A stretch of 64,000 bases of DNA from Marinobacter alexandrii (GTDB lineage Bacteria > Bacteroidota > Bacteroidia > Cytophagales > Cyclobacteriaceae), in assembly GCA_039984955.1 (NCBI GenBank), contig JBDWTN010000007.1, positions 248,001 to 312,000 of the forward strand, in the 5' to 3' direction. The notes below the pieces were generated by a model. It had not been told where the DNA came from. It saw only the letters and a list, made by a program, of their open reading frames with translations, and did not search any database. Each line of letters starts with the position of its first letter. The first letter of the stretch is position 1. Shown one piece after another: positions 49,793-53,380 of the stretch. A program made the translations under genes and the position numbers.

Positions 49793-49860
49793 GGATGCGA
49801 AGGTAAATCCAGAGTAGCAAAAAGCCTTACCTATTTTACAATCAAACAACAAATTTTAAG

Positions 49861-49882
49861 TACTTATAGTCGACTATAAGTA
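49861..49882. promoter_or_regulatory. Perfect 22-bp palindrome
   Basis: A perfect self-complementary 22-base sequence (tacttatagtc and its reverse complement) between the HisB-like gene and the cassette array. It begins 69 bases upstream of the HisB-like ATG (49792). Likely operator for a dimeric regulator; none is identified. Confidence 0.55.
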
Positions 49883-49956
49883 TTTAATAAAATGGATAAT
49901 GTCCTATGCAAAAAGAATCAGAATGTTCTTTACGATGGTTGAATAGGCGAAAGAGG

Positions 49957-49964
49957 TATATTTG
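49957..49964 (+). promoter_or_regulatory. TAnnTTTG box, candidate cassette-array promoter
   Basis: TATATTTG lies 38 bases before the first cassette core (GTTGGGG at 50002), the place an integron Pc-type promoter would take. All cassette genes point away from it. The -35 element is not clear. Confidence 0.45.
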
Positions 49965-50021
49965 AAAGGTAAATAAACGACATAATGTTGTTTACATTAA
50001 TGTTGGGGATCATAGTCGCAC

Positions 50022-50522
50022 ATGAGAGCATTCATCACAATATTCATATTAACTGCCAGTCACGGTCTTTTTGCGCAGATTGAACAACCTGATTTGGACA
50101 GTCTTTATGTCCGAACTATTAGAAGCCAAATTGGTCTAGCAATTTCCAGTGGACATAAATATTTCGAAGTAACTCCCAACACAGAACGAATTAAAGATCA
50201 TGTTGGAATTGCCGTTTTCAAGTTTCTATCTGACAGTGAACTTATAGACAAGGCAATTAAAGAAAAGAGGCCGATAACAATTTACCGAGTTGTCCATAAG
50301 ATCATCTCAACTGATACAGTAGACGTGAACTTTGGAGAAGTTACAGTAACAGCTAAGCGAACTATTCTCCTCGGAAAGAAAGCCAACTTTGCTGTTGGTT
50401 GTGGCGGAACGAACGGTTACATTCCAAATAAGAGGTTTGTTTACTATTCAACTGATGAAGAATGGAAAGAAGTAGAATTCGTGAAGCCTTTGAACTACCG
50501 TGAACGTCTAAAGCAAAACTGA
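50022..50522 (+). CDS. Secreted hypothetical protein (cassette 1)
   Basis: A 166-residue protein with a signal peptide (TASHGLFAQ). The mature part has a mixed alpha/beta pattern (HVGIAVFKFLSDSELIDKAIKEKRPITIYRVV) and two Gly-rich turns (FAVGCGGTNGYIPNK). No family recognised. It begins 20 bases after the first cassette core and its stop is followed by the first attC-like site, as expected for a gene cassette with little room for its own promoter. Confidence 0.65.
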   Translation: MRAFITIFILTASHGLFAQIEQPDLDSLYVRTIRSQIGLAISSGHKYFEVTPNTERIKDHVGIAVFKFLSDSELIDKAIKEKRPITIYRVVHKIISTDTVDVNFGEVTVTAKRTILLGKKANFAVGCGGTNGYIPNKRFVYYSTDEEWKEVEFVKPLNYRERLKQN

Positions 50523-50528
50523 AAAAAC

Positions 50529-50763
50529 GATCCCCAACAAAATGTATAAGGCATGTGCTTGCGTGCTTTCTACGAACTGCATCTGGACATGACCGTTTCG
50601 TCCGCCTCCGAGAGAGTTTTGTGCTGTTTGGATACTTCAGCTTGCGGGATTTTTTCACTTCACAACGCAGTGCATTCTGCAAACTTTGGAAGCACCGGCA
50701 GACTTCACTATTTTAGTTCAGTCCACAAAGTGAGAGCACACGCCTCATACATGGACGTTGTGC
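50529..50763 (+). repeat. attC-like site 1
   Basis: Outer bases GATCCCCAAC at 50529 and the core GTTGTGC at 50757. Arms pair over about 25 bases: CAACaaaATGTATAAGGCATG from 50535 against CACACGCCTCATACATggac before 50757 (a few mismatches). Length about 235 bases, longer than most attC but near the largest known. Its 5' half resembles sites 3 and 4. A short reading frame inside (50553-50780) is not thought to be a gene. Confidence 0.7.
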
Positions 50764-50782
50764 TTCATAATTCTCCATAGCT

Positions 50783-51577
50783 ATGCGAATTACATTGATT
50801 TTATTGCTAACCTCCATTTCAACATCGGTTTTTGGTCAAACTAGTTGGAATCAGTCCTTTGAGGATTGTGGAATTGAAGGAAGCATTACAATTTATGATT
50901 ATAACCTTCATAAATGGACGACTAGTGACATGGATGATAGTCAAGTGCCGACTCTTCCTGCTTCAACTTTTAAAATTGTAAATACTCTAATAGCTCTTGA
51001 AACAAAAGTCGTCAAAGATGAAAACGAGATTATTCCATGGATTGACAATTATGACACCTTAAAATATGGTCACCGTCCACATATCTATCATAGTATGAGT
51101 ATGAAAGAGGCTTTTGAATTATCTGCTGGATGGGCGTATGTTGAACTAGCAAAGAAAATCGGAAAAGATAGATATAAGAATATTTTGACTCAAATTGGAT
51201 ATGGAAATGTTGACTTGTCTATAGAGGATCCTGATTTTTGGAATTTTGGTGAATTTGCAATTTCTCCAGCAAACCAAATCAATGTGTTAGTAAAAATCTA
51301 TGAAGAAACACTGCCTTTTTCGAAGAGATCATATAAAACTCTTAAAGCAATAATGGTAACGGAAGTAACTGATGACTATGTTATTCGAGCTAAGACAGGT
51401 TGGACAAGAGCTAATGGAAAAGATACAGGATGGTGGGTTGGATACATTGAAAAAGCTGATAATGTGTACTTTTTCGCAACACGTCTGATCAAAGACCGAA
51501 ATGAGTTGAACTCGAATTTTGGTAGTTGCCGAAAGGACATAACAAAGAGAATCTTTAAGGAACTTGGAATATTATAA
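50783..51577 (+). CDS. Class D (OXA-type) beta-lactamase (cassette 2)
   Basis: A 264-residue secreted protein (signal peptide ending SVFGQ). Class D motifs: PASTFK (Ser61, Lys64), YGN (140-142), and KTG (204-206, IRAKTGW), plus the FWNFGEFAISPANQ stretch that normally follows. The second motif, usually SxV, is SAG (114-116), a variation near the active site. It probably hydrolyses beta-lactams or is an ancestral homologue; spectrum cannot be judged. It lies in a cassette with matching core and attC-like ends (GTTGTGC and GCACAAC, exact complements), which is the classic context of OXA genes. Confidence 0.9.
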   Translation: MRITLILLLTSISTSVFGQTSWNQSFEDCGIEGSITIYDYNLHKWTTSDMDDSQVPTLPASTFKIVNTLIALETKVVKDENEIIPWIDNYDTLKYGHRPHIYHSMSMKEAFELSAGWAYVELAKKIGKDRYKNILTQIGYGNVDLSIEDPDFWNFGEFAISPANQINVLVKIYEETLPFSKRSYKTLKAIMVTEVTDDYVIRAKTGWTRANGKDTGWWVGYIEKADNVYFFATRLIKDRNELNSNFGSCRKDITKRIFKELGIL

Positions 51578-51584
51578 AACGAAA

Positions 51585-51700
51585 GCACAACAAACACTAA
51601 AATGAATATGCGTACTGATTTTTGATAGGACAATGCAAAGCAGAAGCTTCCGTGCTTCTAGCAACCGGGACGCATATTCATTTTAGCTGAGACGTTGGCA
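51585..51700 (+). repeat. attC-like site 2
   Basis: The best site: GCACAAC, then arm taaaatgaatatgcgt (51598-51613), central region with a small hairpin agaagc/gcttct, then the perfect 16-base complement acgcatattcatttta (51670-51685), a short spacer and the core GTTGGCA (51694). 116 bases, an ordinary attC length. Confidence 0.85.
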
Positions 51701-51721
51701 GTAATACCTCCAGATTAACAA

Positions 51722-52126
51722 ATGACACTTTACGAAAGAAAGCTTAAAAAACTGCATGAGGTTCTTTATAAAAACCAGGGTCAAATCGATGCTATAATTG
51801 CTGTTAGAAACTATATAGACTCCAACTATGAAACCGATTTGAACTTGAATTCGCTATCAAAAATTCAGTTTATTTCAAAGTATCATCTCATACGTCTATT
51901 CAAAAAGTATTACGGTCTCACACCAAGACAATATTTGATAGATAAACGAATTGAAAAATCTAAAGAACACTTGCTAAATGCAATGACGGTCACTAAAACC
52001 TGCTATGCCGTTGGGTTTTCAAGTTTGGGATCATTCAGTGTTCTATTCAAAACTAAAACTGGAAAAACACCAGCTCAATTTCGAAAAGAGCAACTTTCAA
52101 GAAGCAACTTAGTCTCTAATTCTTAA
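51722..52126 (+). CDS. AraC-type regulator, DNA-binding domain only (cassette 3)
   Basis: A 134-residue protein with both helix-turn-helix units of the AraC/XylS domain: LNLNSLSKIQFISKYHLIRLFKKYYGLTPRQYLIDKRIEKSKEHLLN and TVTKTCYAVGFSSLGSFSVLFKTKTGKTPAQFRKEQL. The ligand-binding domain is absent. It is followed after 31 bases by a VOC-family gene, both in one cassette, so it may control that gene or be a free regulator. Confidence 0.88.
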   Translation: MTLYERKLKKLHEVLYKNQGQIDAIIAVRNYIDSNYETDLNLNSLSKIQFISKYHLIRLFKKYYGLTPRQYLIDKRIEKSKEHLLNAMTVTKTCYAVGFSSLGSFSVLFKTKTGKTPAQFRKEQLSRSNLVSNS

Positions 52127-52157
52127 TCTTTGAAGGAGAAAAATTAAACAATAGCAG

Positions 52158-52553
52158 ATGAAGTTAACACTTATAAGTATCCCTGTTCGGGATCAGGAAA
52201 AGGCACTTAGATTCTACACTGAAAAACTAGGATTTATTAAGAAACTCGATACACCGATGGACGGTGGTAATCGTTGGCTAACACTTGTTTCAGCAGAATG
52301 GCAGGATGGGCCAGAACTGCTATTGGAACCAGCACCTAACCACTTTGAACCTTCCAAAGTATTTCAAGATGCCTTGATGAAAGCAGGGATTCCGTGGACT
52401 CAGTTTGATGTAGACAATGTCGACGCTGAATATGAAAGGTTGACAAAAATGGAGGTTGAATTTAGTGTAAAACCAACTCAAATGGGAACTGTAAAATTTG
52501 CAGTTTTTAATGACACCTGCGGAAACAATATTCAACTCGTAGAGAAGCTATAA
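52158..52553 (+). CDS. VOC/glyoxalase-family protein (cassette 3)
   Basis: A 131-residue protein with the VOC fold: TLISIPVRDQEKALRFYTEKLGFIKKLDTP ... WLTLVSAEWQDGPELLLEPAPN ... VKFAVFNDTCGNNIQLVEKL. Metal ligands seem partly present (Glu in ELLLEP). Members include glyoxalases and fosfomycin- or bleomycin-resistance proteins; the exact role is not clear. Shares a cassette with the AraC-type gene. Confidence 0.82.
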   Translation: MKLTLISIPVRDQEKALRFYTEKLGFIKKLDTPMDGGNRWLTLVSAEWQDGPELLLEPAPNHFEPSKVFQDALMKAGIPWTQFDVDNVDAEYERLTKMEVEFSVKPTQMGTVKFAVFNDTCGNNIQLVEKL

Positions 52554-52561
52554 AACACTCC

Positions 52562-52713
52562 TGCCGACAATATGTAAAGGCATGTGCTTAGTGCTTTCTG
52601 TATCTGAACCGCAAAGATTCGCCTTTGGATGGTTCCAAACCTGCTTTTCCTATCTTTAAGATACTAAATCAGTTTATTGAAATATTTATAGGAAGGGAAG
52701 CTAAAGGTTAAAT
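52562..52713 (+). repeat. attC-like site 3 (degenerate)
   Basis: Starts TGCCGAC then ATGTAAAGGCATGTGCTTAGTGC, close to the 5' half of site 1 (ATGTATAAGGCATGTGCTT). The core GTTAAAT at 52707 fits GTTRRRY, but the 3' arm no longer pairs with the 5' arm, so the site is decayed. Confidence 0.55.
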
Positions 52714-52725
52714 GCAATTAGAAAA

Positions 52726-53352
52726 ATGAAGATTCCTGAATTGTATAAGAAATATCATATCGACAAGGATTATACGTCCATTGGTCTTTTCAGAGAACTA
52801 AATAAGAAATTCGAAATAAAACAGGTGTTCTACCCCGGATCGCATGTTCATATCGCACCTTCATTGATTTTTTCAAACGTGACTTATGCTGACTCTTTTA
52901 GGAATACTTACAAGTTTTTTGAAGAAAAAGAGACAATTGATTTCATTACTAAGAACAAAGAGTATTCAGAAGAATCCAAAATTCGTTTTTACCAGCAGGA
53001 CTATAACAAACCTTTTAAAGAACTTAGTAAGGAATTTGACCTTGTAATTTCTCAATATGCAGGATTTGTTGGACAAGCAACAAAGCCCTATCTCAAAAAA
53101 GGGGGACTACTGGTATGTAACAATTCTCATGGAGATGCGTCAATGGCATCCTTAGATCGAGACTTTAGATTAACAGCTGTTTATGGAAGAAAAACGGATG
53201 ATAAATTCACCATTTCTGAAAAAAATTTGGATGAATATTTAATACCAAAAGATGACGTTCAACCAACTAAAGAGCAATTGACAAAATCAATGAGAGGAAA
53301 AGCATATACAAAAAGTCCTTCTGGCTATATTTTTAAGAAAATAAATGAATAA
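52726..53352 (+). CDS. Methyltransferase-like hypothetical protein (cassette 4)
   Basis: A 208-residue protein without signal peptide. A Rossmann-like segment in the middle (FKELSKEFDLVISQYAGFVGQATKPYLKKGGLLVCNNSHGDAS) resembles the D-L-V-[IL]-S / LKKGGLL part of SAM-dependent methyltransferases, but the N-terminal glycine-rich motif I is not clear. The rest is charged. Function unknown. It follows the degenerate attC-like site and ends before the last one. Confidence 0.55.
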   Translation: MKIPELYKKYHIDKDYTSIGLFRELNKKFEIKQVFYPGSHVHIAPSLIFSNVTYADSFRNTYKFFEEKETIDFITKNKEYSEESKIRFYQQDYNKPFKELSKEFDLVISQYAGFVGQATKPYLKKGGLLVCNNSHGDASMASLDRDFRLTAVYGRKTDDKFTISEKNLDEYLIPKDDVQPTKEQLTKSMRGKAYTKSPSGYIFKKINE

Positions 53353-53356
53353 AAGT

Positions 53357-53380
53357 AGTTAACAATGTATAAGCGTATTG
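53357..53380 (+). repeat. attC-like site 4, 5' half only
   Basis: AGTTAACaatGTATAAGCG just after the last cassette gene is related to the 5' halves of sites 1 and 3, and its first seven bases match the reverse complement of the cassette start (GTTAAAT) with one difference. No 3' half was found, so the array end is broken. Confidence 0.4.

Follow-up and report, generated by a model that had tools for sequence, protein, structure and literature searches.

A 64,000-nt window from the genome of Marinobacter alexandrii (positions 248,001 to 312,000 of contig JBDWTN010000007.1; Bacteroidota, Cyclobacteriaceae in GTDB) contains, judging from its sequence, a genuine array of gene cassettes that begins at position 50002 and whose members are linked by shared cores at both ends. 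Very probably, this array is a stranded piece of an integron lineage of the Bacteroidota that is run by integrases without the IntI patch, an additional domain of roughly 40 residues. We view it as a cluster of attC sites without an adjoining integrase (CALIN) that has kept its attI-like site.

The cassette array and its cores

Segment 49,856-53,380 of the window opens with a 32-bp palindrome, which is followed by a short leader containing TATATTTG and then by an attI-like site and the cassettes. The features, with open reading frames (ORFs), are:

49856-49887, no strand: 32-bp near-perfect palindrome, left edge of the shared leader; also precedes attI copies C2, C5a, and C7a
49957-49964, + strand: TATATTTG, candidate -7 box of a promoter into the array; present in 5 of the genome's 6 attI leaders
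49966-50001, + strand: attI-like site, followed by GTT at 50002
50002-50756, + strand: cassette 1; ORF 50022-50522 (166 aa), without a match in Pfam or NCBIfam; 10-nt core link
50529-50765, - strand (the bottom strand folds): attC-like site 1; 221 nt from AAC to GTT; shares a consensus fold with 8 other sites of this genome
50757-51693, + strand: cassette 2; class D beta-lactamase-like ORF 50783-51577 (264 aa); 9-nt core link
51582-51702, - strand: attC-like site 2; 105 nt from AAC to GTT; best match of cross-genus model R1 in this stretch
51694-52706, + strand: cassette 3; AraC-type helix-turn-helix ORF 51722-52126 and VOC ORF 52158-52553 (both from Pfam); core link with one mismatch
52561-52638, - strand: attC-like site 3, left part; 24 nt are 96% identical to a site in locus L041, and 31 nt are 87% identical to a site in locus L040
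52639-52706, no strand: remnant of one end of an attC-targeting IS110-family element, aligned to the insertion sequence (IS) end in locus L153; ends at the GTT core (52707)
52707-53363, + strand: unit 4; ORF 52726-53352 (208 aa), no family assigned; weak boundary, core match 7/9
53355-53380, - strand: site 4, possible left remnant; left arm of about 15 nt

The original prediction, of an integrase-less cassette array with attC-like sites, is supported by the attI-like site, by sister arrays in the same genome, and by arrays in other genera. It held that two core links are exact and that two have one mismatch. Unit 1 starts with GTTGGGGATC (50002) and ends with GATCCCCAAC (50538), a 10/10 match, and unit 2 starts with GTTGTGCTT (50757) and ends with AAGCACAAC (51591), a 9/9 match. 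Unit 3 has the expected single mismatch (GTTGGCAG at 51694 and CTGCCGAC at 52568, 7/8), but unit 4 has two (start 52707, end 53363) and is a weak link. With uniform bases, a candidate would match at all 6 free core positions with a probability of 0.00024, and with at most one mismatch there with a probability of 0.0046.

Each unit was also expected to end in a palindrome. Sites 1 and 2 are whole hairpins, and are the only complete ones in the window, but site 3 is interrupted and site 4 has just a short left arm. No right arm is detectable in the fold of site 4, and it matches neither the other sites nor the IS110-family end. As predicted, the genes of the array all run in one direction, and the Pfam domains (a transpeptidase domain of the kind found in class D beta-lactamases, an AraC helix-turn-helix, and a glyoxalase/VOC domain) agree with an OXA-type enzyme, an AraC regulator, and a VOC protein. 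The suggested site motif, ATGTATAAGGCATG, did not hold up as a general one: the genome has a single exact occurrence of it. An Rfam search of the window gave no matches. In a search for empty sites, the GNAT gene adjoining the array was not found in 9 other members of the genus; the region behind accC differs among species, and no empty site was recovered there.

Sister arrays in the same genome

A search for the 18-base attI pattern with at most one mismatch gave six copies in the genome: one on contig C2, three on C5, and two on C7 (the window's copy being one of these). Four dispersed copies (C2, C5a, C7a, and the window) have in common a roughly 150-bp leader that contains the palindrome; the palindromes lie at window 49856-49887, L041:7618-7649, L082:6033-6064, and L083:5591-5622. 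The first cassette closes with an exact core at five of the six attI copies, including the window's; C5b has two mismatches. The six copies suggest that a single integrase may act on many attI platforms scattered over a genome.

In locus L040 on contig C5, attI lies directly 3' of the stop codon of a tyrosine recombinase gene, in the same direction, and this gene is frameshifted. The term "integrase-less" is thus right for the window but not beyond it, because another copy of this attI has a recombinase next to it. An intact patch-less recombinase of 277 aa is encoded at the end of contig C6; just upstream of it is an inverted repeat (TTGGGTTGAATG...CATTCAACCCAA, within L039:19613-19876), possibly its own recombination site. 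Other cassettes of the genome include Fic/Doc and ParE proteins, types that are common cargo of chromosomal integrons.

We take TANNTTTG to be the pattern of a -7 box, which is our basis for calling TATATTTG a candidate -7 box. TATATTTG is also found behind the integrase of L088, a locus from the same genus; of 13 leaders from other genera, 4 contain TANNTTTG, in two cases far from the GTT. Since inverted repeats beyond chance (p <= 0.03) were found at attI in only 8 of 20 leaders, we do not claim that attI is palindromic in general.

Arrays beside patch-less integrases in other Bacteroidota

Scanning one genome per species with an integrase alignment gave at least 80 loci. For a test of core-linked sites we used 33 of the 80, picked by title and by a complete integrase; 31 of these are titled Bacteroidota, and the other two are L141 and L146. 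(L130, L145, L151, and L165, which are Bacteroidota with a cut or missing integrase ORF, and L125, whose title names no phylum, were excluded.) We found 33 core-linked attC-like sites in 147.6 kb of 3' flank, versus 3 in 297.7 kb of 5' flank; all 3 are in L153, whose array runs the opposite way. Dinucleotide shuffles (729.8 kb) contained no core-linked sites.

The named hosts are Algibacter onchidii (7 sites), Arundinibacter roseus (6), Winogradskyella ursingii (3), Flavobacterium aciduliphilum (3), Aquiflexum sp. (2), Zunongwangia mangrovi (2), and Alkalitalea saponilacus (1). The other hosts are metagenome-assembled genomes (MAGs) of Bacteroidales, Mesonia, and other Bacteroidetes. Four more arrays lie next to integrases in family genomes (L097, L105, L111, and L114). 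In 9 of 78 loci, all titled Bacteroidota, the first cassette begins 30-323 nt past the integrase stop (with an exact link within 400 nt).

The attC-like sites covary as hairpins

The bottom strands of 23 attC-like sites from six named genera and three MAGs (23 of 26 listed sites, aligned with MAFFT as alignment A5) have a consensus fold in which a spacer separates a 5-pair R helix from a 17-pair L arm, and 94.0% of cells are paired. The covariation score is 0.662, versus 0.172 for shuffled and at most 0.176 for slid alignments. Double changes occur in 16 of 22 pairs, including 15 of 17 in the L arm; in the R helix, 4 of 5 pairs are invariant and hence uninformative. By this analysis, covariation supports the folding of the bottom strands into hairpins. 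Two of the pairs are G-U without exception in all 23 sites, and the corresponding pairs are G-U in 8 of the 9 long sites of the M. alexandrii genome. No conserved extrahelical bases appear in the consensus of the 23 sites or of the 9, a result that depends on the MAFFT alignment.

For counts of wobbles and pairing we kept 40 of 41 sites (L142 was dropped). Three of the 40, from L153, are on the other strand, and some sites in L118 and L137 are near-copies. Across the 37 forward sites, the arms have 61 wobbles on the bottom strand versus 22 on the top strand. In the pairing of cassette starts with their ends, positions 1-9 match by requirement. Beyond these, position 10 pairs in 24/40 sites, position 11 in 0/40, and positions 12-15 in 34, 36, 27, and 17 of 40, with background levels thereafter. 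The mismatch at position 11 is A.C in 28/40, which corresponds to a T.G wobble on the bottom strand.

We built a covariance model (R1) from the 23 sites of other genera only. Searched against 41 of the 80 loci, R1 gave 64 matches up to E = 1, and it recovered sites it was not trained on in L122 (5), L133 (2), and L139 (4). At loci with patched IntI it gave only two weak matches (E = 0.05 and 0.2), both in L160. With filters off, the top match in 3.8 kb of the window is exactly site 2, on the bottom strand (17.3 bits, E = 0.0017), and the top match in 5 kb of L040 is the first site there (13.6 bits, E = 0.017). Against the whole M. alexandrii genome (150 of 2226 candidates scored), R1 gave a single match, which lies elsewhere, at G000:C7:3249353-3249518 (24.3 bits, E = 0.046).

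The integrases lack the IntI patch

We called a protein IntI if it reached the curated cut-off of TIGR02249. The M. alexandrii genome has 9 integrase-like places, none inside the window, and all 9 score below this cut-off. Just 2 of 148 family genomes encode an IntI over the cut-off, and M. alexandrii is not among them. Relatives of the C5 recombinase (E <= 1e-40) occur in 104 of the 148; not all of these need be integron enzymes. The alignment to IntI (PDB 2a3v) splits into two stretches and leaves out the patch region. Furthermore, the distance from the KR-box to the HxLRH motif could be measured in 80 of 87 proteins. It is 100-101 aa in 20 of these and 56-67 aa in the other 60, among which are all 17 array integrases. 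A quick tree groups the 20 patched proteins into a single clade (support 100), and the 17 array-associated patch-less integrases fall, along with L088, within a clade of 44 rows (support 88). (L088 has only an attI-like site before its contig ends.)

N-terminal extensions of the array integrases

An N-terminal extension is present in 16 of the 17 array-associated integrases, and these 16 proteins have total lengths of 345-683 aa. AlphaFold models of the L120 integrase are of high confidence, with pLDDT values of 85.9 for the whole protein and 89.0 for the N-terminal part, which is predicted to form two beta-beta-alpha-beta-beta-alpha repeats. IntI is the top Foldseek match of the whole model (E = 1.7e-17), and Foldseek found nothing at E <= 0.001 for the N-terminal model (best 0.014). 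In structural comparisons, the N-terminal part matched XPB (Z = 7.0), eIF1 (7.0), the N-terminal part of MutS (5.1-6.1), and the HARP domain of SMARCAL1 (4o66; Z = 5.1 over 57/67 residues, with a root-mean-square deviation of 2.6); all of these scores are under 8, below the level where the tool tells kinship from a common arrangement. The Pfam model for HARP (PF07443) matched weakly in 4 of 10 proteins (E <= 0.1) and in 4 of 28 members of alignment A3 (E <= 0.05). The likeness to SMARCAL1 consists of weak Pfam and fold matches to the repeats; unlike the HARP domain proper, the repeats fall below the cut-off and are fused to a recombinase instead of a helicase. The N-terminal domain may read folded DNA. 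In the integrases of L149 and L156 (675 and 683 aa), the N-terminal part looks, by eye, like a second, degenerate core-binding/recombinase unit.

Weighing the explanations

Several observations weigh against integrons run by patch-less integrases. The sole attI-adjacent recombinase found in the M. alexandrii genome is frameshifted, and there is no recognizable attI in the 264 nt upstream of the 277-aa recombinase or behind it. Of the 25 loci whose 3' flank exceeds 600 nt, just 13 gave a linked site, and one of these (L142) looks like chance; many patch-less relatives have no array in reach. One family genome (G115) holds 18 recombinase copies, as would be seen for a transposon recombinase. As for the sites, 16 pairs with double changes were also reached by 15 of 500 shuffles, and R1 with default filters had no matches in 194.5 kb of the genome's own loci. 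A chain test on 26 mostly canonical IntI loci gave no locus with two or more links, so the test lacks a working positive control. (Another linkage criterion gave one link, in L187; the IntI loci are unfit as positive controls because many carry little sequence on the array side.) As for the N-terminal extension, it is missing from integrases of M. alexandrii's own type (the frameshifted one in L040 and also L088), and the best Pfam score for HARP is 24.3 bits, versus a gathering cut-off of 25, with a structural match of Z = 5.1.

We considered that the window might hold an ordinary decayed CALIN, with cassettes from a canonical patched IntI elsewhere and the patch-less recombinase as a bystander. 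CALINs are known to arise through loss of IntI or through off-target insertion (as described in a passage of PMC8618304), and canonical IntI does exist in 2 of the 148 family genomes. However, this seems unlikely given that the genome has no IntI over the cut-off, that attI directly follows a patch-less integrase, and that the integrase-attI arrangement recurs in several genera.

The patch-less recombinases could instead be transposon-like or Xer-like passengers at the attI/attC-like hairpins, with the cassettes being moved by an unknown factor. Patch-less relatives without arrays fit this idea, and so do the 18 copies in G115. In L104 and L113, two different tyrosine recombinase genes stand in tandem, which along with those copies suggests that this enzyme family is used by transposons. 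Against it stands the fixed layout in several genera, with the arrays 3' of the integrase, in the same direction, and with the first cassette 30-323 nt past the stop codon, and we regard this explanation as quite improbable.

Finally, it is hardly credible that the palindromes are unrelated repeats (REP-like elements, terminators, or IS ends) with core pairing by chance: sites 3 and 4 are incomplete and R1 misses the genome's own loci at default filters, but the shuffles had no linked sites, five arrays of the genome have exact core links, the sites covary, and the top matches of R1 at full sensitivity land on the predicted sites.

A proposed mechanism

Cassette-end pairing, the covariation of the hairpins, the position of attI, the absence of the patch, and the association of arrays with recombinases are established at the level of sequence. 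We propose that a tyrosine recombinase without the IntI patch, encoded just upstream of attI and in the same direction, would carry out the recombination. Circular cassettes would enter at attI via the folded bottom strand of the attC hairpin, which would explain why the start of each cassette is the complement of its own end. The N-terminal extension, often with HARP-like repeats, may help to grip the folded DNA in place of the patch, and the cassettes would be expressed from the leader. In M. alexandrii, the platform would persist as six attI copies, one with an adjacent frameshifted integrase, along with the intact patch-less recombinase on another contig.

On balance, we lean towards a broader proposal: the Bacteroidota would have a separate integron lineage of their own, in which the IntI patch is replaced, in most members, by N-terminal domains that resemble HARP, XPB, or MutS domain I, and in which attC is marked by invariant bottom-strand G-T wobbles instead of by extrahelical bases.

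An IS110-family element in attC

Site 3 is, by alignment, an attC that was interrupted by an IS110-family element of which one end remains. Its right part matches the end of an attC-targeting IS110-family element with a local score of 52, versus a highest score of 34 among 2000 shuffles. A whole element, with a DEDD transposase (PF01548, 3.9e-19), lies inside an attC of L153, a Flammeovirgaceae MAG. IS110-family ends abut attC cores at three junctions (L153, L082, and L040); those in L082 and L040 are coding ends at the ends of contigs. Contigs C2 (L082:7010-7149) and C5 (L040:19345-19484) end in a shared C-terminal coding end of an IS110-family element fused to attC cores, and the assembly breaks there. 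Elements of the IS1111-attC group target attC (stated in part of PMC11187229, citing Tetu and Holmes 2008). The elements here are similar in that an element with a DEDD transposase is inserted at an attC core, but they are from Bacteroidota and lie in another kind of attC.

The class D beta-lactamase-like cargo

The ORF of cassette 2 is, on its family matches, a clear class D homologue outside the curated families. It matches PF00905 (1.3e-32) but does not reach the cut-offs of NCBIfam NF012161 (203.6 bits versus 250) or of the closest model, NF047782 for OXA-1327 (352.3 bits versus 590). Among sequenced plasmids, the top-ranked match shares 37.3% identity with it. Six of 59 related genomes encode OXA relatives at 55-65% identity, and these 6 loci, with flanks of up to 1.5 kb, have no detectable cassettes; a 41% identical relative in L050 does lie in a cassette.

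Comparison to known integrons

The predicted platform would work like an integron; under the usual patch-based definition, it is not one. We found complementary R''/R' cores, hairpins with an R box, an unpaired spacer, and an L arm, and an attI beside an integrase. Like the IntI integrons (class 1 and the chromosomal integrons of Vibrio), these arrays have attI at their head, co-directional cassettes, and attC hairpins with R''/R' core pairing and a G beside the bottom-strand AAC. Unlike them, the integrase has no patch and usually has an N-terminal extension, and integrase and cassettes run in one direction. The hairpins also differ, with invariant G-T wobbles, no conserved extrahelical base seen, and a fixed mismatch at position 11 after which pairing resumes at 12-15. 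This fits the original prediction's remark that the sites are unlike those of class 1 integrons or the Vibrio cholerae repeats. In canonical attC sites, some bases are extrahelical, the central spacer is unpaired, and the pairing extends over 9-11 nt in most cassettes (according to a portion of PMC2727003). The integrons of Treponema are similar in that intI is transcribed toward the cassettes (as given in a section of PMC3607928), but their integrase is classed as intI. In part of PMC9024848, a CALIN is a cluster of at least two attC without an adjoining integrase; the window has two whole attC and one interrupted, with no integrase nearby, but its array differs from a CALIN in keeping an attI-like site and leader.

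The IntI patch is held to be necessary, and both the definition and the detection of integrons make use of it (in a passage of PMC9668308, citing Messier and Roy 2001). The literature we searched, which left most subscription papers and preprints outside, has no account of integrons run by patch-less integrases, and the setting of the arrays points to a little-noticed type of integron with a patch-less recombinase. In Bacteroidetes, In0 elements had been found earlier, and IntegronFinder 2.0 gave one complete integron, in Salinibacter ruber M1 (as reported in part of PMC9024848). If our proposal is correct, a patch-less lineage could explain why that survey, so far as this portion of it goes, found a lone complete integron in the Bacteroidetes. 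It would also bring to light an unseen pool of mobile cassettes, with beta-lactamase-like and toxin-antitoxin genes among them, and how a recombinase reads folded attC without the patch would become a testable question.

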